Source: Saccharofermentans sp.
GTDB lineage: Bacteria > Bacillota > Clostridia > Saccharofermentanales > Saccharofermentanaceae
Assembly (NCBI GenBank): GCA_024684815.1
Contig: JAIKWL010000080.1
Span: 1-33,068 of the forward strand
DNA: 33,068 bases
Direction of reading: 5' to 3'
Both the position numbers and the translations under genes were made by a program. The notes beneath the pieces are model-generated. The model was given only the letters and a program-made list of their open reading frames with translations, had not been told where the DNA came from and made no database searches. Below, one piece after another: positions 2,345 to 29,313 of this stretch. Within the stretch, counting starts at the first letter, position 1, and the number at the start of each line of letters is the position of its first letter.

Positions 2345-4159
2345 ATGAGTGAGAACTACCGCGAGTATATAAGGAATTTCTGCATAATCGCACATATCGA
2401 TCACGGAAAGTCTACTCTGGCTGACCGTCTTATCGAGCACACCCATGTCAGGGAAAAGCGTGAGATGACAGACCAGATACTTGATAATATGGATATCGAG
2501 CGTGAGCGCGGAATAACCATAAAGTCACAGGCCGTAAGACTGCCTTATGAGGCAAAGGACGGCAATACGTATCTTTTGAATCTCATTGACACTCCCGGTC
2601 ATGTGGACTTCAACTATGAGGTATCAAGGTCACTTGCTGCCTGCGATGGCGCTATACTTGTCGTTGACGCATCACAGGGCGTTGAAGCCCAGACTTTGGC
2701 AAACGTATATCTTGCAGTTGATGCAGACCTTGAAGTCCTTCCGGTAATAAACAAGATCGATCTTCCTTCTGCAAGACCTGAAGAGGTGCGTCAGGAGATA
2801 GAGGACGATATAGGTATCGATGCTTCTTATGCACCCTGCATTTCCGCTAAGAGCGATATAAATATCGATGAGGTCCTCGAAAAGGTTGTCGAATACCTTC
2901 CCTCGCCCGAAGGAGATGAGACCAAGCCTTTGGCGGCTCTTGTTTTCGATTCCAAATACGATTCATACAAGGGCGTTATCGTCAGTGTCAGAGTCAAGAA
3001 CGGCACTGTAAAGACATGTGACCGCATAAAGATGATGCACTCCGGAAAGGAATTCACCGTGACCGAACTCGGCATGTTCCATCCGGGCGAACTGGTTCCC
3101 ACCGAATCTTTAAGAGCAGGCGAGGTAGGTTATATCTGCGCTTCCATAAAGAATGTAAGGGATACGGCTCCGGGCGACACTGTAACGCTTGCCGATGATC
3201 CTGCCGATGAACCTCTTATCGGATACAAGGGCATTCAGCAGATGGTATTCTGCGGAATGTATCCGGTTGACGGAGCAAGATACGGTGATCTGAAGGATGC
3301 TCTCGAAAAGTTAAGACTTAACGATGCCGCGCTCTCATTTGATGCGGAGACATCTGCAGCTCTGGGCTTCGGATTCAGATGCGGATTCTTAGGTCTTCTT
3401 CACTATGAAGTAATACAGGAGAGACTTGAGAGGGAATTCAATCTCGATCTTATAAGCACCGCGCCTTCAGTTATCTACAAGATCCATCTTATGGACGGCA
3501 GTGTGGTAGATTGTTCCAATCCTACCAATATGCCGGATCCCACTACGATTGATTATATGGAAGAACCTATCGTTAAGGCGACGATAATGCTTCCTAAAGA
3601 ATATGTCGGAAACATAATGGAACTCTGTCAGGAGCGCCGCGGTGAATATACCGACATGAAGTATCTTGATGAGAAGCGTGTAATGCTTCACTATATGATG
3701 CCTCTTAACGAGATCATCTATGACTTTTTCGATGCATTAAAATCACGCACAAGAGGCTATGCCTCACTTGACTACGAACCGGCAGGATACATGAGATCAA
3801 AGCTTGTTAAGCTTGATATCCTTCTGAACGGCGATCCGGTCGATGCGCTGTCTTTCATAGTTCATGCAGACAAGGCATACGGCAGGGGAAGAAGGATGTG
3901 CGAGAAGCTCAAAGAGAATATCCCGAGGCAGCAGTTCGAAGTTCCCGTACAGGCTGCAATAGGCGGCAAGATCATTGCAAGAGAGACTATCAAGGCATAC
4001 AGAAAAGACGTTACTTCAAAGTGTTACGGCGGTGATATCTCACGTAAGAAGAAGCTCCTTGAGAAGCAGAAGGAAGGTAAGAAGAGGATGAGACAGGTAG
4101 GCTCTGTCGAAGTGCCTCAGGAAGCCTTCATGAGCGTCTTAAAACTTGATGATGAATAA
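2345..4159 (+). CDS. lepA: Elongation factor 4 (LepA), ribosome-associated GTPase
   Basis: LepA/EF4 is a translational GTPase that acts on the ribosome and has been implicated in back-translocation and 30S assembly. The 604-residue length is typical. The P-loop is AHIDHGKST (16-24), switch I holds [11 protein letters not shown]3 is DTPGH, and G4 is NKID. The C-terminal half carries the LepA-specific domain with the conserved [14 protein letters not shown] and [22 protein letters not shown]-like segment and the basic tail ([19 protein letters not shown]) that reaches the A site. An AAAGGA lies about 9 bases before the ATG, and the gap after lepB is only 13 bases. It is the best-conserved gene in this operon and shows nothing unusual. 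Confidence 0.97.
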
Positions 4160-4180
4160 GCATGACAGATATGGGGTGGA

Positions 4181-4672
4181 ATGAAAATGCTTGTCAGGGA
4201 TAAAAAGGGAAATGAATTATTGGAGCTTTATAAGACCGGAGAAGATAAAGCCGATGGATCTTATTCTCCGATAACGCATTGCCTTGCATCAGTTAAAGTC
4301 GGTGATGATTATCTTCTCGGATGGAACAAATACCGTCAGGAATGGGAGATCTTCGGAGGCTGCAGGGAAGACGGTGAATCTGTTAGAGAGTGCATCGTCA
4401 GGGAATGCGAGGAAGAACTCGGCATCAAAGACGGCGAGTTCACTTTCCTCGGAATAATGTATTTACATCTGGCTCCGGGATACTTCAATCCCGAATGGCA
4501 TTATGAATACGGCGGATTTTACGGCATATCTCTTCCTTCTGATGCTTTGAAAGATATCGAAGCATTCAGAACGGATAAGGAAGAGGTGGAGCGTCTGGCA
4601 TTTTACAGCGAGGTTAAAGGTAAAGAGCTGATAGCACCGATCGATGAATATCTGCTCGGCTGCTGGAGCTGA
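4181..4672 (+). CDS. Nudix hydrolase
   Basis: This 163-residue protein contains a complete Nudix box: a Gly, five residues, Glu, seven residues, then RECEEELGI (about 69-91), preceded by the usual GWNKYRQEWEIFGG strand. Nudix enzymes hydrolyse nucleoside diphosphates linked to another moiety using Mg bound by the REXXEE glutamates. The substrate cannot be read from the sequence. The C-terminal part (HYEYGGFYGI...) has several aromatic residues that could line a base or alcohol pocket. The start at 4181 follows GGGGTGGA by a few bases, and a Met two codons later is also possible. It is the last gene after lepA, 21 bases downstream and probably co-transcribed, with a candidate terminator at 4681-4706. 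It is convergent with the next gene. Confidence 0.85.
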   Translation: MKMLVRDKKGNELLELYKTGEDKADGSYSPITHCLASVKVGDDYLLGWNKYRQEWEIFGGCREDGESVRECIVRECEEELGIKDGEFTFLGIMYLHLAPGYFNPEWHYEYGGFYGISLPSDALKDIEAFRTDKEEVERLAFYSEVKGKELIAPIDEYLLGCWS

Positions 4673-4680
4673 TCAGTCTT

Positions 4681-4706
4681 TCTCAAGATCTCTGAGACAG
4701 TTTTTT
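4681..4706 (+). terminator. Weak rho-independent terminator after the lepA operon
   Basis: TCTCA and TGAGA arms (4681-4685 and 4693-4697) enclose a 7-base loop and are followed by CAG and six Ts (4701-4706). The stem is only 5 bp, so this is a modest call. The position between convergent genes fits. Confidence 0.45.
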
Positions 4707-4728
4707 GATTTCGCGGGCAGTTTAATGA

Positions 4729-6312
4729 TCACTGCATCATCTTCCTGTTATAACCCTGCTTCTCGAAGTCGGTTGCATTCTCGTCGAGTTCTTCTTCCTC
4801 GAGTTCGGGTGCGGCACTCCTGAAGTCGAACTTCTTCTGCTCACCGTATTTCCAGCCTGACTCGATGGATACGAAGTCTTTTGTTGTCTCATAAGCGTCG
4901 ATACCGAATGCGGAATCGTAATAAGCTTCAACACCCTGTTCCGGTGCTATATCGTGACTGTTGGCTTTTGAGAGGGACTCGATATCATGCTGCGCTTTGC
5001 CGTGAAGTATTTTCGGAAGGATCTCCGCGAAAAAATAAAGCAGCACACAGAAGAGGATGATTATCAGGAGCGTTTCCACGGGCTTGTTGAATATAAATCC
5101 CATAACCGCGAATCCGTCGGTCAATCCCGAGAAAAGACGAAGGAGCAGAAATGCCAGGATAGGAAGCAGATACAGACATGTGCGGATACCGGCATTTAAT
5201 CCTATCGCATTCATCTTTGCGCGTCTTCCGGTCCTCTCTATAGTCTCCCATCCCTTGGCATAAGGGAACTCTCCGGATACTTTGCCTGTCTGACCGTTGA
5301 TTATGTACTGATAATTCTTTCCGTCGTATTCGATGTTCAGAAACCAGCAGGGAAGGAGGGCATACTTGATATCCTGGTTATGGTATCTCGTTACACTTCC
5401 TGACGATTCCGGAACGAAATCGTCAAACCCGAATGTAAGTTCATCGCAGAGCTGCAGAGTGTATTTATCAAGACGGGTATAGATCCTGTCAGTCATATCA
5501 AGAGGCATCTCATCGTATTTCTCGGCGAAGAAGCCCTGCAGGTATTCCGGCCTGAATCTTACAAGTTCGGAATAGTCGAAAGGCTCTGCAGCTGACATAA
5601 GGCGGTTCGGGATCTTGACCTCTCCGTCAAAGGGGACATTCTTCAGTCTGAATTTGACTTTGCCGTATGTGAGTTTGGAATAATCGCCGTTATCGGATTT
5701 ATGCATTTCCGCATACGAATCATCGACCATTCTTCCCATGTTGCCTTTGCCGACGACATTTACATCAACCTCAGTTGATATTATCCATGTCGGAACGTAA
5801 AGCCCTGACATCTTCGCTAAGACTTTTTGGGATTTGAAATCCTTTGGAAGATGGGGAATGCCGGCGCAATGCTCTTCAAACAGTGATATGGCCTTATCTT
5901 TATCGAATTTGAACGGAATTATATAGTCGGGTTTAAATTCTCTGGTAAGTCTTCTGGTAACTATTGCGGGAGAACCGCAGAAGGCACAGTATGTCGATGA
6001 GGTGTTCTTGTCAGTTACGATCTGTGCGCCGCAGGAGTTACATACTATTTCCTGACGGCTTTCGTCTTCCTTGCTGATCTCGATCGTTCCGTCGTAATCC
6101 TTCTCGGGATTTGCAAGACCGAATGAACCGACTTTGTCCAGAGTCTCAGGATCGAAGAGTCCGCCGCAGTTCCTGCATATCATGGCTCCGTGCTCTAATT
6201 CGTATACCAGGCTCGATGCGCAGTTCGGACACTTATATGAGTCTGCGGAATATGTCTTAACATCTGAAGAATCGAAACCGTCCGCACCGGCAGGTCTGTC
6301 CCAAATAGCCAT
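4729..6312 (-). CDS. Membrane protein with two N-terminal zinc ribbons, function unknown
   Basis: I do not know a function for this 527-residue protein. Two CxxC...CxxC zinc ribbons are clear: Cys28/31/46/49 and Cys91/94/109/112. A soluble domain of about 250 residues follows, with motifs recurring in clostridial zinc-ribbon proteins (FKPDYIIPFKFDKDKAI, SGLYVPTWI, LLPCWFLNIEYDGKNYQYIINGQTGKV). Two hydrophobic segments (about 374-395 and 415-437) come next, then an acidic tail with a Tyr/Asp-rich patch. Without a signal peptide and with a two-helix hairpin, both ends should face the cytoplasm. AGGGG lies about 10 bases before the ATG, and a consensus promoter sits at 6349-6378, so it can be transcribed apart from the GNAT gene upstream. 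The double ribbon could serve protein or nucleic-acid recognition; no catalytic motif is visible. Confidence 0.8.
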   Translation of the reverse strand: MAIWDRPAGADGFDSSDVKTYSADSYKCPNCASSLVYELEHGAMICRNCGGLFDPETLDKVGSFGLANPEKDYDGTIEISKEDESRQEIVCNSCGAQIVTDKNTSSTYCAFCGSPAIVTRRLTREFKPDYIIPFKFDKDKAISLFEEHCAGIPHLPKDFKSQKVLAKMSGLYVPTWIISTEVDVNVVGKGNMGRMVDDSYAEMHKSDNGDYSKLTYGKVKFRLKNVPFDGEVKIPNRLMSAAEPFDYSELVRFRPEYLQGFFAEKYDEMPLDMTDRIYTRLDKYTLQLCDELTFGFDDFVPESSGSVTRYHNQDIKYALLPCWFLNIEYDGKNYQYIINGQTGKVSGEFPYAKGWETIERTGRRAKMNAIGLNAGIRTCLYLLPILAFLLLRLFSGLTDGFAVMGFIFNKPVETLLIIILFCVLLYFFAEILPKILHGKAQHDIESLSKANSHDIAPEQGVEAYYDSAFGIDAYETTKDFVSIESGWKYGEQKKFDFRSAAPELEEEELDENATDFEKQGYNRKMMQ

Positions 6313-20864: not shown

Positions 20865-23273
20865 GTGTCGTCAAGAAATAATCTGTCCACCAAGATAATA
20901 ATGATGGTAGAGGGTATTCTGCTAGTCTCCGGTATCCTGTTCTGTTCAGTATCGGTTTACAGGTCCAGAGTCGGAATCCGCAAAGCCATCCAGCAGCGTA
21001 TGCTCGATATCGCAAACTGTGCTTCAGGTTCCGTGAACGGTGATGTCATGAAAGGGCTTACCGAAGATAAGATCGGCAGCACGGAATATAATGAAGTCTA
21101 TAACACTCTTGCTGTTTTCAGAGATAACGTTGAACTCGAATATGTATATACCATCAAGCAGGCCGGCGAGAAGGATTTTATCTTTACCATGGACTTGGAC
21201 CTTGTCAGCCCTGCAAGTTACGGAGACAGTGTCAAATATACCGAAGCTCTTGCCAGTGCAGGAAGAGGTGTTGCAGCTGTCGACGAAGTGCCTTATTCGG
21301 ATCAGTGGGGTGAATTTTACAGTGCCTACAGCCCCGTGCTCGATTCAAACGGAAAAGTTGCCGGCATCGTTGCCGTTGATTTCTCCGTTGATTGGTTCGA
21401 AGGTCAGTTATCTGCACAGACACGTTCAACTGTTATAGGTTCTCTGATAATACTTCTCATATCTCTTGTTTTTGCAGCTGTTCTTTCTCTGCTTATCGTA
21501 AGACCGTTTGTAAGAGCTCAGGGCGAGCTTCTGGAAGAGAAGGTCCGTGCAGAGAGCGCAAGCCATGCAAAGAGCGATTTCCTTGCAAACATGTCTCACG
21601 AGATCAGGACTCCCATCAATGCCGTACTCGGTATGAATGAGATGATCATCAGAGAAGAGCACAAAGCCAAAGATCTTGCCGAGAGCGATCCTAAGCTTGT
21701 CCAGGAAGCTCTGGAGAATATCGGTGTCTATGCCGGAGATGTTAAGAAAGCCGGTCATAACCTTTTGGCTATCGTCAACGATATCCTTGACTTCTCGAAA
21801 ATAGAATCCGGCAAGCTCGATATCATGGAAGCTCCGTATCAGCTGAGTTCACTCCTGAATGATGTAAATAACATGATCATCTTCAAAGCCCAGGACAAAG
21901 GTCTGAAATTTTCGATGGAAGTTGATCCTTCGATCCCGGATGAACTGTCAGGCGATGAAGTCCGTGTCCGCCAGATACTTACCAACCTCCTTAACAATGC
22001 CGTCAAGTATACGGAGAAGGGTTCTGTAACCCTTATGATCCGCGGCAAGAGGATTGAGGATGGAATGCTTAATCTGTCCATGATCGTTTGGGATACTGGA
22101 ATCGGTATCAAGCCCGAAGATAAAGAGAAACTTTTCAATAAATTCCATCGCCTTGAGATGGAACAGAACAGTACGGTTGAAGGCACCGGTCTGGGTCTTG
22201 CCATAACACATCACCTTGTTAACATCATGGGCGGTAAGATCGATGTCGAGAGTGAATACGGAAAGGGTTCCGTCTTTACCGTTACCATTCCGCAGAAGAT
22301 CATATCTGAAAATACCATTGGAGACTTCCAGACAAGACTGGAAGACAATGCACCGGGTGATAAACCTTACAGGGAATCATTCCGCGCTCCTGATGCCAGC
22401 ATCCTTATTGTTGATGATACCAGGATCAATCTTACGGTTGCCGTTAATCTTCTCAAGAACACTAAGATGAAGATAGACACAGCGACTTCAGGCGCCGAAG
22501 CGATAGTGAAGGCGGAGAATAACAAGTACGATGTGATCTTTATGGATCAGCGTATGCCCAAGATGAACGGAACAGAAGCTCTGCACCGTATCCGCGAGAC
22601 CGAGAAGGGCGCGAGCAGGGACGTTCCCGTTGTATGTCTTACTGCCGATGCTGTAATAGGCGCCAAGGAACGCTACCTGTCTGATGGTTTCTCGGATTAT
22701 CTGACTAAGCCTATCGACAATTTCGCTCTTGAGAATATGCTCTTAAAATATCTGCCCGGAGAAAAAGTCGAGCGCGTTATCGAAGAGACCGTAACGGTTT
22801 TCGGAGATAAGGAAGCCACAGAGAATGACTTTGATATCCTCCGTTCTGTAGGGATCGAGCCCAGAACGGGTCTTAGATACTGTCAGGAAGACATATCGCT
22901 TTACCATTCGCTCCTTGCCGAATACGCATACGGCGAACTCGAGAAGTCTGAGAATCTCCAGAAGAGCTATGAAGCTGAGAACTGGCATGATTATTCTATC
23001 TATGTTCATGCTCTTAAGAGTTCTTCCAAGATGATAGGCGCTCTGTCATTATCCAAGATAGCAGCTAAGCTCGAGGCAGCTGCAAATGCAGTCGATTCGG
23101 GAACTATAAAGGCTGAACATGATTCCATGATGGAGGAATACGGTGTGGTAACTGCTGTCATCCGTTCACTTATCCCGAAAGAAGCTCTAGGGAATGAAAA
23201 AGATGACGTAACGGAATTCTCGCCGAATGATGAAGTTATCGAATTCCTTCCTAACGAAAATCATGAACAGTGA
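20865..23273 (+). CDS. Hybrid sensor histidine kinase with receiver and HPt domains
   Basis: The 802-residue product has TM1 (about 11-31), an extracellular Cache-like sensor (about 35-185, ending GKVAGIVAVDFSVDWF) and TM2 (about 189-212). HisKA follows with the H-box HAKSDFLANMSHEIRTPIN (phospho-His245), then an ATPase domain with N-box QILTNLLNNAVKYTE, WDTGIGI and GTGLGL. A receiver follows (LIVDD; phospho-Asp561 in FMDQRMPKMNG; Lys615), then a C-terminal HPt with His715 in HALKSSSKMIGA. A full His-Asp-His relay is present in one chain, so the output regulator must lie elsewhere. No HAMP domain is seen; only about 20 helical residues join TM2 to HisKA. The start is a GTG, 7 bases after GAGGGGG. 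Confidence 0.93.
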   Translation: MSSRNNLSTKIIMMVEGILLVSGILFCSVSVYRSRVGIRKAIQQRMLDIANCASGSVNGDVMKGLTEDKIGSTEYNEVYNTLAVFRDNVELEYVYTIKQAGEKDFIFTMDLDLVSPASYGDSVKYTEALASAGRGVAAVDEVPYSDQWGEFYSAYSPVLDSNGKVAGIVAVDFSVDWFEGQLSAQTRSTVIGSLIILLISLVFAAVLSLLIVRPFVRAQGELLEEKVRAESASHAKSDFLANMSHEIRTPINAVLGMNEMIIREEHKAKDLAESDPKLVQEALENIGVYAGDVKKAGHNLLAIVNDILDFSKIESGKLDIMEAPYQLSSLLNDVNNMIIFKAQDKGLKFSMEVDPSIPDELSGDEVRVRQILTNLLNNAVKYTEKGSVTLMIRGKRIEDGMLNLSMIVWDTGIGIKPEDKEKLFNKFHRLEMEQNSTVEGTGLGLAITHHLVNIMGGKIDVESEYGKGSVFTVTIPQKIISENTIGDFQTRLEDNAPGDKPYRESFRAPDASILIVDDTRINLTVAVNLLKNTKMKIDTATSGAEAIVKAENNKYDVIFMDQRMPKMNGTEALHRIRETEKGASRDVPVVCLTADAVIGAKERYLSDGFSDYLTKPIDNFALENMLLKYLPGEKVERVIEETVTVFGDKEATENDFDILRSVGIEPRTGLRYCQEDISLYHSLLAEYAYGELEKSENLQKSYEAENWHDYSIYVHALKSSSKMIGALSLSKIAAKLEAAANAVDSGTIKAEHDSMMEEYGVVTAVIRSLIPKEALGNEKDDVTEFSPNDEVIEFLPNENHEQ

Positions 23274-23288
23274 CAGGAGGCAATCTTA

Positions 23289-23462
23289 ATGCCCGGTTGT
23301 GAAACATGCCAATATGCATTTATAGATGAAAATACCGGTGAGGCGGTGTGTGATCTTGATCTTGACGAGGATGAGGTCATAAGGCTTTCGCAACGTTCAT
23401 ATAAGGAATGTCCTTTCTACAAAGACGGTGACGAGTATAAGACCGTCAGGCATCAGATGTAA
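23289..23462 (+). CDS. Small four-cysteine protein (DUF6472-like)
   Basis: This 57-residue protein begins MPGCETCQYAF and has Cys4, Cys7, Cys21 and Cys41 separated by an acidic run (DLDLDEDE), ending DEYKTVRHQM. From memory it resembles a short clostridial family named DUF6472; this was not checked. The four Cys could bind one zinc or an Fe-S cluster. AGGAGG at 23275-23280 lies 8 bases before the ATG and only 15 bases separate it from the kinase stop, so it is almost certainly expressed with the kinase. Function unknown. Confidence 0.82.
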   Translation: MPGCETCQYAFIDENTGEAVCDLDLDEDEVIRLSQRSYKECPFYKDGDEYKTVRHQM

Positions 23463-23494: not shown

Positions 23495-23500
23495 TATAAT
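23495..23500 (+). promoter_or_regulatory. -10 element before the zinc-ribbon/TPR pair
   Basis: A perfect TATAAT 62 bases before the ATG at 23563, in an AT-rich gap of 100 bases. No convincing -35 at 16-18 bases. Confidence 0.5.
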
Positions 23501-23562: not shown

Positions 23563-25101
23563 ATGGCATTTCTTAAAAGTTATTCCTGCGTTAAATGCGG
23601 TGGTGTCCTGAACTTTGATGAGGATCAGGAAGTTTTCGGTTGTCCTTTTTGCGGCGGTGAATTTGCATTTACAGATTTCCACAGAGGGGATCTGATCAAG
23701 CAGGGAAAGATGGCTCTGAACAGGGAAAATTTTTTTACTGCAAAAGATAAGTTTCAGGCGATCCTTAAGAGAAATCCAAGAGACTTTGAAGCGCTGCAGG
23801 GCCTGATACTGGCTGAAGGAAATATTCCTGCTGTAAACAGGCTTTGCAGGATCGAGTATCTGGAAGATGCCAAATTAAAAGAAGCTATAGAGGCAACAAA
23901 GAAAGCTAAAGAGGCACTGAATGAAGAATCCGAGTATTTCGGAATCCTTATCAGCATGTTCGAGCTTGCTTATAAATACCACAAGAGCAGCGATGAAACT
24001 GATATAGCAACAAAAGCAAAAAATAAGCATTTCAGAGCTATGAGTTATGAACTGATCGGTATCGAAGAACGCGAGGAAGTTGCTTTTGACGGTTTTAAGA
24101 AGGTGCTCGTTTTTTTAGCTTCAAGAGTCTTACCTGTTTTCCTGGCTGTTTCGATTGTTTCAGGACTCTGGTGGATAACCGCCGGTTTTGTCGGTCTTGT
24201 TGCTCTTACAGGCGGAATAATAAAACTCTATTATTTCTCACAGAAAAAGCGGATAGACAGTCGTCTTAGCAGCGAGATGAGACAACAGTTTGATGAAGAA
24301 GATACTGAATTTGATAAGTTGAAGAATATCAGGAATGAGTACATTAAAACCTATATCAAGCTTAAGAAGATCGTTCCTGATCCCAAAGCTTACGAAAAAC
24401 CCCTGCCGCCTGAAAAGAAGGATACTTCGGTAACTGACGATCCTTTCATGAATATCGAGAAAAACGTCATCTGTAACAAGTGCGGCGGCCAGTTGGTCCT
24501 TGATAAAGAGAAAAACCTTTACGAGTGCAGATCCTGCGGAGTTGCATACGGCACGACCTTGTTCTTCGGTGATCCTTTCAAAAAAGCTGCAAAAGCTCTG
24601 AAGGAAAATGATTTTGAAGAAGCAGAACAGAGATTCTCTTATATCCTGATGATGGATCCTCATGTTTTCGAGGCCCTTCTCGGAAGGATTCTTTGCGCCG
24701 GCCAGTGGAAGAGCATTAATGATATTGCTTTGACTGAAGAGGCTGTGCCTGAAATACGTCTGGATAATATTAAAGGACGTGCAGACGAAGCGGTTATGCA
24801 TGTTGCAGAAGAAGACATGTCCTTTATGGAAGATATCCGGAAGCTTATTTATCTTTACTGTGATTATGAGCAGGCAGCGCAGGCGGCTGATATATTTAAC
24901 GGTCTGCTTGAGAATATATCCAGGAACAGACTGGCTCTCCTGGCAGATAAGGATAATGAGGATTCTCCTCTTAAAAATGAAAACGATTATGTGATAAAGA
25001 GAAGAGCTGAGCTTGCAAAAAAGCATGATTCGAAGGATAAATTCGATGAATTGAAAGCTAAGCTCTTACTTGAGAATACTAAAAGGCTATCCAAGGTATG
25101 A
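23563..25101 (+). CDS. Zinc-ribbon/TPR-like membrane protein, copy 1 of tandem pair
   Basis: I do not recognise a named family for this 512-residue protein. It holds one module twice. Module 1 has a zinc ribbon (Cys9/12/27/30) followed by a TPR-like helix pair (about 46-83: ALNRENFFTAKDKFQAILKR, then PRDFEALQG). Module 2 has a ribbon (Cys304/307/322/325) followed by a matching helix pair (about 339-378: ALKENDFEEAEQRFSYILMM, then PHVFEALLGRIL). Two membrane helices (about 181-200 and 203-223) and a charged coil (about 225-290) lie between them, so both modules should be on the cytoplasmic side. The gene is 11 bases upstream of a paralogue of 511 residues with the same layout. A role in scaffolding or sensing at the membrane is only a guess. 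Confidence 0.82.
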   Translation: MAFLKSYSCVKCGGVLNFDEDQEVFGCPFCGGEFAFTDFHRGDLIKQGKMALNRENFFTAKDKFQAILKRNPRDFEALQGLILAEGNIPAVNRLCRIEYLEDAKLKEAIEATKKAKEALNEESEYFGILISMFELAYKYHKSSDETDIATKAKNKHFRAMSYELIGIEEREEVAFDGFKKVLVFLASRVLPVFLAVSIVSGLWWITAGFVGLVALTGGIIKLYYFSQKKRIDSRLSSEMRQQFDEEDTEFDKLKNIRNEYIKTYIKLKKIVPDPKAYEKPLPPEKKDTSVTDDPFMNIEKNVICNKCGGQLVLDKEKNLYECRSCGVAYGTTLFFGDPFKKAAKALKENDFEEAEQRFSYILMMDPHVFEALLGRILCAGQWKSINDIALTEEAVPEIRLDNIKGRADEAVMHVAEEDMSFMEDIRKLIYLYCDYEQAAQAADIFNGLLENISRNRLALLADKDNEDSPLKNENDYVIKRRAELAKKHDSKDKFDELKAKLLLENTKRLSKV

Positions 25102-25112
25102 GAGGATAGATA

Positions 25113-26648
25113 ATGGCCGGATTAAAGAGTTACACATGTTCAAAATGTTCAGGAGTCCTTGTTTTCGACAACGGCAGGGATAATTATGCCTGTCCCTTCT
25201 GCGGAACAAGTTTTCAAAGCGGTGCTTTCTATAGTGAAGAGCTTTTTGCTCAGGCAAATTCGGGCCTTGAGCAAAAGGCTTTTGAACTGGCCAAAGAAAA
25301 GTACAATCTCATATTGGAAGAGGATCCTCATAACTTTAATGCGTTATTAGGTTCTGTGCTTTGTGAGACAGGAATCTCATCTGTTTCTGAACTTGAAGAT
25401 CACGGGATTATCAAGGATGCCGATCCGTCGAAAATAAGGATTGCAGTCAAAAAAGCAAAGGATAATGCCACTATAGCGGAAGCTTTGTTTTTTGACGGGT
25501 TTATGGAACTGATTGATCTTGCCGCGGAGATCAGGAAGACCGGCGATGTAAAAAAGGAAGTCACTTCTGGAGAGACTAAAGAAAGATTTGAGAGATCGGC
25601 AGAGTTGGTTTCAGGTTACGATGAGTTAAAAGGACTGTGTATTATGATAACAGCTTTCCTTTTGGGCGGGACAATCATATTCCTGGTATTGGGAGGGTTG
25701 ACTGAATTCGCTCTGTTTACCATGATAGGCGTTTATTTGGCAGCAGCGTTGATATTTGCTTTAATCTGTCTGGGTCACCTGATGCTCGGTGCCGGATCCA
25801 AAGCGGATGCCTACCGGCAAGTCAATAATGTTGCATCATCCGCAAAGGCAGTCGCTTCAAGAAAAGAAGAAGCTGAGATCGAAGAATATAAAGAGAAATT
25901 TTCACAGATGATGAAGTCTTTTACAGAACTGAAAGAATCTGCCCTGTCTTCTCCTGAGATCGAAAGAACAGAAGAGGACAGCAATAATACTGCAACCAGT
26001 ACAGGAAAGAACGTAATCTGCGACAAGTGCGGTGCGGAGTTATCTCTTGATGATTCAGGACGCTTTTACAGCTGCAAACACTGCGGCGTTGCATACGGAG
26101 TCTCCCTTTTCTTCGGGCATTCTCTCGAGAAAGCCCTGAATGTTTTAAATGCCGGCTATTTCGAAGAAGCTGACAGCAGACTTTCATATTTTCTGATGCA
26201 TGCTCCTTCCGATTTTGATGCACGCCTCGGGAGGATCCTTTGCTGCGGAAGATGGACAAAGATAAGCGATGTCGATTACTCAAACGATACTTCGCTCGAT
26301 CTTATCAGGAAACTTGAAAACCTGACTAAAGAAGCTACAGAGAATGTAGCTGAACCTGATAAGGAATTCTTTGTTGAAGTAAGAGAACTTACAAATATTC
26401 TTACCAAGATCATGCTCAACAGAAACAAGCAGAATAAGCTTATTTCAGCTCTTGAAAAGCTGGAGGCAGCCAAGATCGCATATTCATATTCGTACGATTA
26501 TGTTAAATCTGATCCTGAAAAGGAGAAGCGAAAACTTGACTACGATCTCAGGACTCTTCGGATCGAAGAAGAATATATACGAAAGCGCTTTGAAGATGAA
26601 AAGAACAAACTGATCGGAATGAGAAGTGACAGCGTATTCTGCAAATAA
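25113..26648 (+). CDS. Zinc-ribbon/TPR-like membrane protein, copy 2 of tandem pair
   Basis: This paralogue of the preceding gene (511 against 512 residues) keeps the same architecture: ribbon Cys9/12/27/30, TPR-like pair (about 46-84), membrane helices (about 174-195 and 198-225), charged coil (about 228-290), second ribbon Cys303/306/321/324, second TPR-like pair (about 339-378). The segments after the second ribbon (CGVAYG..LFFG and the GRILC.G.W motif) are nearly the same in both proteins, while membrane helices and C-terminal helices differ. The C-terminus is longer and more coiled here, with a run of K/E/R from about 450. The ATG follows AGAGGATAGATA in an 11-base gap. Retention of both copies suggests a heteromeric complex rather than redundancy; this is inference. 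Confidence 0.82.
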   Translation: MAGLKSYTCSKCSGVLVFDNGRDNYACPFCGTSFQSGAFYSEELFAQANSGLEQKAFELAKEKYNLILEEDPHNFNALLGSVLCETGISSVSELEDHGIIKDADPSKIRIAVKKAKDNATIAEALFFDGFMELIDLAAEIRKTGDVKKEVTSGETKERFERSAELVSGYDELKGLCIMITAFLLGGTIIFLVLGGLTEFALFTMIGVYLAAALIFALICLGHLMLGAGSKADAYRQVNNVASSAKAVASRKEEAEIEEYKEKFSQMMKSFTELKESALSSPEIERTEEDSNNTATSTGKNVICDKCGAELSLDDSGRFYSCKHCGVAYGVSLFFGHSLEKALNVLNAGYFEEADSRLSYFLMHAPSDFDARLGRILCCGRWTKISDVDYSNDTSLDLIRKLENLTKEATENVAEPDKEFFVEVRELTNILTKIMLNRNKQNKLISALEKLEAAKIAYSYSYDYVKSDPEKEKRKLDYDLRTLRIEEEYIRKRFEDEKNKLIGMRSDSVFCK

Positions 26649-28515: not shown

Positions 28516-29313
28516 TTATCTGTAATTCTTTTCGATGAAATCATTAAACCAGCTTATGTCCAGAGGATGATCAGCAGATTCAAAGGTATAAAACAATCTG
28601 TCACCCTGAAATATCTGAGCCTTCGCATATTTGTTTGCTCTGTCAATCATATCCTCAACATATCCGGAGTCGCCCATTTTTCCGCAGTGTTCGTGGTAGA
28701 GTATTTTTCTGTCACTAAGTCTCAGGATAGTGAAGTCGGGGTGAAATACCACACCTCCGATAAGGACCGGGCATTCATACTTATACGGAATACCCTTGAT
28801 ATAAAGCCTGTCCGCGATTATTACTTCTGACTTGGATCTTACACGTTCACCTTTCATCGTATAGTATTCAGGAGCATCCTTACTGAAAGGTTTTGGCACA
28901 AAAGGAATTGCCAGCCATTCTTTGGCATAATCTTCGTCGCTGAATATAAGAGGTGAAGCATACTTGATATATCTATCATCAAGTGCTAAATAGGCTTTCT
29001 CAAAAGTGGTTTTTGGGTACTCGAGAATATCTTTCTTAAGTACTTTAGCTTCGAGTTCTGCTGCTTCGAGTGCTTGCTTTATCTGCTCCTTTTGAACTAA
29101 TTGGCGAATTAATACAAAGTCTTTTTTGCCCAAATAATTTTCGCCTGAACTTGAGTATGTGTAGAAATATGAATAACCCTTATGAATCCGGATATAAATA
29201 CTGCATCCCGGGAGTCCCTCGTTTGCTTTTTCGAGTGACGATATGGTTCTAATCAGTGTTCTATATCTGGCACGCATTACATCCAATACTGAATTCTTCA
29301 TATAGAGTGCCAT
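28516..29313 (-). CDS. Predicted PD-(D/E)XK-like nuclease of a clostridial family
   Basis: The 265-residue protein has an N-terminal part rich in Lys and Tyr (IYIRIHKGYSYFYTYSSSGENYLGKKD, about 39-65) and a helical middle. Its C-terminal domain shows a PD-(D/E)XK-like signature: RSKSEVIIADRL (Glu163), then YKYECP, then HPDFTI (Asp193), then YHEHCGKMGDSGYVEDM (Glu208, with His209 where Lys is usual). From memory this family is widespread, often in several copies per genome, in gut Clostridia and has no established function; this was not checked. Two starts are possible (29313 and 29301). AAAGG abuts the first and lies 12 bases before the second. No methylase or toxin partner is adjacent. Palindromic repeats flank it on both sides. 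Confidence 0.72.
   Translation of the reverse strand: MALYMKNSVLDVMRARYRTLIRTISSLEKANEGLPGCSIYIRIHKGYSYFYTYSSSGENYLGKKDFVLIRQLVQKEQIKQALEAAELEAKVLKKDILEYPKTTFEKAYLALDDRYIKYASPLIFSDEDYAKEWLAIPFVPKPFSKDAPEYYTMKGERVRSKSEVIIADRLYIKGIPYKYECPVLIGGVVFHPDFTILRLSDRKILYHEHCGKMGDSGYVEDMIDRANKYAKAQIFQGDRLFYTFESADHPLDISWFNDFIEKNYR

Follow-up and report, generated by a model that had tools for sequence, protein, structure and literature searches.

In some anti-phage systems, membrane effectors disturb the membrane. YdjG of Bacillus subtilis carries a cytosolic zinc ribbon. One report finds that membrane recruitment of YdjI and PspA depends on YdjG and YdjH (PMC8581546). Here, two adjacent genes, A and B, are described from a 33,068-nucleotide stretch of Saccharofermentans sp. 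(contig JAIKWL010000080.1; hereafter, the window). Both encoded proteins have the order ribbon and tetratricopeptide repeat (TPR), linker, two-helix hydrophobic hairpin, coil, a second ribbon and TPR, and a tail. With a probability of about 0.5, A and B are clade-specific, membrane-tethered cytosolic adaptor or sensor proteins with two sites. Neither protein is matched by a Pfam or NCBIfam model above cut-off, and the best matches include sub-threshold ribbon and TPR models. The first-pass annotation of this DNA knew of no described system with such a layout, and the missing model matches agree with it; the layout is not singular, however, because it recurs among the architectures of a large family. 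Searches of open-licence literature turned up no description of a family of this kind.

The four modules of the two proteins are homologous. The two open reading frames (ORFs) of 512 and 511 amino acids drawn by that annotation exist, and the cysteines of all eight CxxC pairs lie exactly where it had placed them, at residues 9/12/27/30 in both proteins, 304/307/322/325 in A, and 303/306/321/324 in B. Module alignments were scored as z against 500 shuffles each. Full modules gave z values of 22 for the first and second modules of A (A1–A2), 40 for A1–B1, 17 for A1–B2, 29 for A2–B1, 54 for A2–B2, and 19 for B1–B2; every pair aligns far above the shuffles, which bears out the proposed fourfold ribbon–TPR repeat. 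After removal of the ribbon (the first 36 residues), z between modules was still 7 to 34. Identities are 59/131 for A2–B2, 54/145 for A1–B1, 45/149 for A1–A2, and 35/136 for B1–B2, and the second modules are more alike across the proteins than the two modules within either one, as had been suspected. The motifs that had been read in all four modules fared differently. Gly-x-(I/V)-Leu is present, by eye, in each of them, while the literal AL-x4-F-x2-A occurs in two (B1 has GL and B2 has VL) and, family-wide, in 6/46, 8/45, and 5/39 modules of the three types defined by the module tree.

The tree of 139 modules, built on few columns and with many weak forks, puts the second modules (T2) in one clade (99/99) and the first modules (T1) in a group at 92/83, and the remaining one-module and two-unit forms (T3) group at 90/70. 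A and B split inside both T1 and T2, in agreement with the earlier proposal of an internal duplication followed by a gene duplication. The two-unit proteins go back to a separate duplication within T3. Two genomes (G334 and G005) have freestanding modules that group in the T2 clade, and the hairpin genes that immediately precede these modules group with T1. All four loci fetched from the sister genus (L190, L193, L198, and L200) encode T1-hairpin and T2 in separate, neighbouring genes (for example at 4450-5418 and 5433-6197 in L193, and at 3599-4525 and 4512-5201 in L200); these loci were outside the training sets of the hidden Markov models (HMMs). In a census by three type HMMs, T1 had T2 next downstream in 55/55 resolvable cases (48 within one ORF, 7 with T2 in the gene that follows, and 0 alone), and one more T1 stood at a locus edge. 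The corresponding figures for T2 were 48 in the same ORF, 7 in an adjacent gene, 0 alone, and 2 at a locus edge. T1 and T2 distances correlate (r = 0.868 over 43 proteins, a value reached by 0 of 2000 permutations), as expected from joint inheritance. As T1 and T2 are fused in most cases and encoded by adjacent genes elsewhere, either the 512-amino-acid protein arose when two neighbouring genes fused, or the split form is the product of fission. In either order of events, T1 and T2 travel together. The 55/55 pairing in fused and split forms leads to the prediction that split T1-transmembrane (TM) and T2 proteins form a complex. Synonymous divergence is uneven within some genes, being 0.54 in module 1 and 0.13–0.15 in the hairpin and module 2 for L132/L135; such unevenness in L132/L135, L129/L131, and L010/L011 hints at gene conversion or recombination between paralogues.

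The modules are under purifying selection; evolution is fast in the hairpin and coils, which some proteins have lost. Column entropy over 31 sequences is 0.85 to 1.57 in the ribbons and TPRs, 2.3 to 2.4 in the post-TPR regions, and 2.75 to 2.81 in the hairpin and the coil that follows it. In 7/7 orthologue pairs, dN/dS of the hairpin and coil (0.19 to 0.65) was above that of both modules (0.04 to 0.33), although single values are rough because certain pairs differ very little and others have high dS. TM segments are absent altogether from five two-module proteins. A fast-evolving and dispensable hairpin between conserved modules suggests that the hairpin is a tether and the modules are the functional part. 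In 37 A-like proteins, the mean number of Lys and Arg residues is 3.27 before TM1, 0.76 in the loop (median 8 residues), and 3.38 after TM2. This distribution indicates that both modules of A-like proteins are probably cytosolic (N-in/C-in), and the earlier picture of four cytosolic ribbons at the membrane fits the same positive-inside pattern. The four cysteines are kept in 130/130 typed modules (46/46 T1, 45/45 T2, and 39/39 T3), a set that leaves aside nine ribbon-poor matches, and the ribbons presumably bind zinc. Ribbons of T1 are acidic in 40/43 cases (mean charge −1.67) and those of T2 basic in 36/43 (mean +2.2), and whole modules are net negative in the three types (−5.3, −2.7, and −6.7). 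The opposite ribbon charges are compatible with a putative contact between T1 and T2.

Further homologues lie on five other contigs of the window genome. A search with P0001 gave matches in 25/59 genomes (its own included), all among the 35 of the same genus and none among the 24 from other genera of the order. A family profile built from 18 modules was then applied more widely, with at most 21 candidates scored per genome in the order and at most 10 in the class. In the order, 86/188 genomes matched at E ≤ 1e-10, comprising 62 of the same genus, 23 of the sister genus in the same family, and one of another family (E = 9.7e-13). Within the same genus, five genomes (G011, G022, G031, G898, and G904) match only at 1e-11 to 1e-13 and carry TIR-linked modules. 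In the class, 56/392 genomes matched at E ≤ 1e-6, 11 of them from the window's genus, and the best score outside the genus was 58 bits. In a phylum sample, 2/398 genomes matched at E ≤ 1e-8, namely the window's own and G135. Twelve genomes were scored in full and have 7 to 23 profile matches each at E ≤ 1e-5, with a maximum in G005 of 22 full modules and one ribbon-only match. These matches place A and B in a paralogous, strongly expanded, clade-specific family of two genera of one bacterial family. P0001 had no match in plasmids or phages, and the 26 pattern matches in viral contigs included no confirmed relative; an origin from a mobile element or phage was rejected on these grounds.

The architectures were sampled in 83 complete, non-identical family proteins, with TM segments called by a simple hydropathy threshold. 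The A/B-like order of module, hairpin, and module was found in 37/83, and one module with a hairpin in 29/83. Two full units with four TM segments occurred in 6/83, two modules without TM in 5/83, and one module without TM in 4/83 (one of these, in L061, is probably cut by the locus end); the remaining 2/83 are borderline, with one or three predicted TM segments. Helix-pair copies poor in ribbon were also seen in G001, G008, G020, G027, G109, and G133, some as the third copy in a two-module protein.

As two-site adaptors or sensors, A and B would each present T1 and T2, ribbon–TPR modules that are related without being equivalent, to the cytosol, with an N-in/C-in membrane hairpin connecting them. 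T1 and T2 would act as one unit, made as adjacent-gene products in the sister genus (four loci) and in three same-genus species, and fused elsewhere. The modules most likely bind proteins through the TPR groove and the zinc-stabilised ribbon, and the hairpin would only hold them at the membrane. With many paralogues whose linkers and tails evolve fast, partners, sites, or signals would differ from one protein to another, and the proteins may serve as sensors or as scaffolds.

Several observations weigh against this reading. The pairing census and the four-cysteine count use loci and proteins that were collected by similarity to these same modules. One-module T3 proteins make up 27/83 of the complete proteins and two-unit T3 proteins 6/83, all of them without T2. 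Nine profile matches in the 12 fully scored genomes start after model position 25 with most or all of the ribbon missing, so the ribbon is not universal in relatives. The 29 one-module proteins do not clearly show the positive-inside pattern (mean Lys and Arg counts of 2.21 before the hairpin, 2.45 within its loop, and 3.83 after it, with 5 loops longer than 30 residues). Window B departs from the ribbon charge pattern, with +1 and 0. No partner gene was established by the neighbourhood tests.

The first-pass annotation also took the A–B tandem as a system, and this part is not supported. In the window, A and B are flanked by a hybrid histidine kinase (20865-23273) and a methyltransferase-rsmI pair, within the wider order tmk-holB-ricT-…-trmN-rsmI-metG (tmk named by eye). 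The methyltransferase is labelled trmN since TrmN is its best NCBIfam model, with a score below cut-off. The stop of A and the start of B are 11 bp apart, and a ribosome-binding-like GAGAGGA, noted by eye, overlaps the stop (Table 1). The comparison covered 43 loci around trmN (the window, L044, L045, and L129–L168), with trmN unrecognised in L152 and L168 and with types assigned by best match and not by tree in each case. Family genes were directly upstream of trmN at 10/43 loci, and over all loci the number of copies there ranged from 0 to 4. Four of the ten have A and B types (L044, a tandem array of four family copies, has three of B type), five have the B type only, and in one (L131) the B type is accompanied by an A-like fragment where the contig ends. 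What is inserted between ricT and trmN varies; 12 loci have no ORF of at least 110 amino acids between the two genes, and the gap elsewhere holds a hybrid kinase, ABC/LytTR-like genes, or family genes. Many family paralogues are located away from trmN. The A–B pair as a system was rejected, as B types occur without A and copy number at the site varies. The fixed pair is the two modules inside each protein rather than the two genes, and the interest of the finding lies inside each protein more than between A and B.

Table 1. Features of genes A and B and their modules in the window.
Feature	Coordinates	Strand	Description and evidence
Gene A	23563..25101	+	512 aa; T1 module, TM hairpin, coil, T2 module, tail
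A T1 module, residues 4-139	23572..23979	+	four-Cys ribbon, TPR-like helix pair, post-TPR region; HMM match, T1 group in tree
A membrane hairpin, residues ~181-220	24103..24222	+	predicted from hydropathy and K/R distribution
A T2 module, residues 300-435	24460..24867	+	HMM match, T2 clade 99/99
Gene B	25113..26648	+	511 aa; architecture as A
B T1 module, residues 4-139	25122..25529	+	HMM match, tree
B membrane hairpin, residues ~175-220	25635..25772	+	predicted from hydropathy
B T2 module, residues 299-432	26007..26408	+	HMM match, tree
TATAAT, possible -10 of A's own promoter	23495..23500	+	by eye; absent from consensus scan output; weak

Other ORFs stand close to the two genes. Immediately 5' of A is an ORF of 57 amino acids (23289-23462, +), which is a clear DUF6472 protein (PF20076, 1.2e-21). 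A protein of 265 amino acids without a Pfam or NCBIfam match lies between rsmI and metG (28516-29313, −), and ORFs related to it cluster near family genes in 6 loci.

The weaker matches in the class were of two kinds, namely ribbon-only matches in proteins mostly of about 350-500 amino acids and matches to the ribbon–TPR N-termini of longer proteins. A Pfam scan of 10 relatives found TIR (PF13676) directly after the module in 6, one of which (L101) is from the window's own genus, and W-x3-E is kept in all 6 TIR domains. Among the 4 relatives without TIR, those in L090 and L093 had been matched through the ribbon alone, and those in L099 and L106 through ribbon and TPR. A profile of 16 ribbon–TPR N-termini of such longer proteins was aligned to the family profile by hhalign at 99.2% (E = 1.6e-19) over 132 columns, which reach beyond the TPR. 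No full-length family for the ribbon–TPR–TIR proteins was found in Pfam or NCBIfam. The TIR-linked profile matches 28/115 genomes of this bacterial family, in which the TIR domains themselves are unchecked; 11 belong to the window's genus and 17 to the sister genus, and all 17 also have the TM family. This co-occurrence points to a common module with different outputs and not to a simple swap. Ribbon–TPR genes at L090 and L093 (TIR confirmed for the one scanned, L090) adjoin genes of ribbon proteins whose beginning resembles TIR (L093: YISYIETDDSGRRTKDS). The neighbour ribbon protein that was scanned (L090 729-2774) had no Pfam TIR match, and this is perhaps another heterotypic ribbon pair.

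The homology to TIR-domain proteins raises the possibility of an immune-type receptor, in which ribbon–TPR would be the sensing half, with an output that is TIR elsewhere in the class and, here, a hairpin that would disturb the membrane on ligand binding. We consider this unlikely. In its favour are the shared module and the conserved W-x3-E, and copy number in the family varies strongly, with tandem arrays such as the four copies in L044. There are also two weak matches, one between the second hairpin of L055 and a model named '2TM effector' (17.2 bits, E = 9e-4) and one between L092, a TIR protein, and Thoeris ThcB4 (28.9 bits, cut-off 220). However, conservation of the hairpin is among the lowest in these proteins, and five of them lack it although both modules are retained, which is unlike an effector, and the co-occurrence in 17 sister-genus genomes means that one profile does not simply replace the other. 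PADLOC and PHROG gave nothing informative for A and B; the matches obtained from the two sets are weak, at the level of ribbon, coil, hairpin, or TIR, and for A and B themselves PADLOC gave no more than one ribbon-level Cas12f match. The P0001 results for phages, plasmids, and viral contigs also count against an immune role. A broader proposal is that ribbon–TPR is a recognition module with interchangeable outputs, that the 512-amino-acid proteins are fused heterotypic T1+T2 receptors, and that up to 22 modules per genome form a lineage-specific array resembling immune receptors or serving envelope surveillance; this is improbable, and more so than either the immune-type receptor or the envelope-stress anchor discussed next.

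A zinc-ribbon membrane protein that recruits an SPFH/PspA-type complex, in the manner of YdjG/YdjH of B. subtilis, would make A and B envelope-stress anchors. The general layout is alike, with a cytosolic ribbon and membrane helices, and the recruitment of YdjI and PspA by YdjG/YdjH provides the model. Clustering of neighbours gave the trmN site, LytTR-like genes, ABC transporters, an ECF-like sigma factor, and TFIIB-ribbon membrane proteins (names by eye). ECF, LytTR-like, and ABC genes recur in counts taken without a background, in part through orthology of the trmN site and among loci that were selected for the family, and no linkage is claimed for them. The TFIIB-type ribbon-membrane proteins were first seen near modules at 6 loci. 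In the 12 genomes, 7/137 matches to them lay within 5 kb of a module (by eye), where about 3.4 would be expected (P 0.06 by a rough Poisson estimate). Two of these seven, in G005 and G020, adjoin sister family genes (L113 and L118), so they are probably one event. Linkage with these proteins was not established; at most there is a weak excess among matches that are not all independent. For Band_7_1 genes, the figure was 2/29, both in one genome (G109), compared with 0.7 expected (P 0.17); this linkage was not established either.

Flotillin was recognised at 32/34 loci fetched, with a similarity of only about 30% in the same-genus genomes, and a family gene was adjacent at 1/32 (G922). Linkage with flotillin was not established. 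At that one locus (L200/L229), T1-TM and T2 genes come after the flotillin gene, in an operon-like cluster of flotillin, ribbon/2TM protein, T1-hairpin, and T2 that stands beside a 70% homologue of the window histidine kinase. The hybrid histidine kinase was likewise not taken as a partner, because its 70%-identical homologue, although beside a family pair in G922, is also beside flotillin without the family (L219, L221, and L228), and the kinase is absent at the family-bearing trmN loci L130, L135, and L137. Neither neighbour excess is convincing, and the module profile matches ribbon-membrane proteins over the ribbon only. Taken with the single flotillin locus, these results make an envelope-stress anchor distinctly unlikely. 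The window itself holds a ribbon-membrane protein of 527 amino acids (4729-6312, −), with two N-terminal ribbons (PF08271 above cut-off) and two C-terminal TM segments. A query related to it found 5 to 14 matches per genome in the 12 genomes, which is another large ribbon-membrane family of this lineage. In the sister genus (L189, L191, L192, L203, and similar), a one-module protein with a long TM1–TM2 loop adjoins a gene of about 1000 amino acids, which is GH115 in the one scanned (L189), and further neighbours look, by eye, like a two-component system.

The ribbon matches leave one more candidate function, that of a membrane-bound nucleic-acid or translation factor, in which TFIIB/TFIIS-like ribbons would bind DNA or RNA and the position beside trmN-rsmI-metG would reflect this role. 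The weak ribbon matches to TFIIB-, TFIIS-, and L37ae-type models and the basic T2 ribbons are consistent with it, but none of these matches reaches its curated cut-off, the T1 ribbons carry acidic charge, and the net charge of whole modules is negative. Since the trmN position is a variable insertion site and not a fixed operon, and many paralogues lie elsewhere, such a factor is very improbable. The two-site adaptor or sensor remains the preferred reading of A and B.

Comparison with known systems places A and B near four groups. With YdjG/YdjH of the pspA-ydjGHI operon, membrane proteins that anchor a cytosolic complex, the comparison concerns the way they work and not their sequences; linkage with SPFH genes (YdjI-like, flotillin) was not established in the A/B family, and PspA genes were not searched for. 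With TFIIB/TFIIS/A2L-type zinc ribbons, A and B have the CxxC-x14-CxxC ribbon in common at sub-threshold scores, and differ in their acidic T1 ribbons, their membrane context, and the lack of transcription domains in Pfam and NCBIfam scans. With the TPR superfamily (PF13432, PF14559, and consensus TPR designs in the PDB), the likeness lies in a single helix pair of each module, which is similar to TPR profiles; the models score below threshold against A (PF13432 20.3 bits, cut-off 32.7; PF14559 15.5, cut-off 25), and the best match of the family profile to TPR proteins in the PDB (E = 1.4e-15) is summed over their many repeats. A and B differ from this superfamily by a single sub-threshold TPR fixed behind a ribbon. 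The ribbon–TPR–TIR proteins differ from A and B in having TIR at about residues 158-285, where A and B have coil, hairpin, and coil and no PF13676, in showing no T1/T2 pair, and in their spread over several families of the class. They share with A and B an N-terminal four-Cys ribbon, a TPR, and a post-TPR region that are homologous over 132 columns, and tandem paralogues in some genomes (L089 and L102), and this homology offers a way to approach the question of what is sensed or bound by the ribbon–TPR module more widely.

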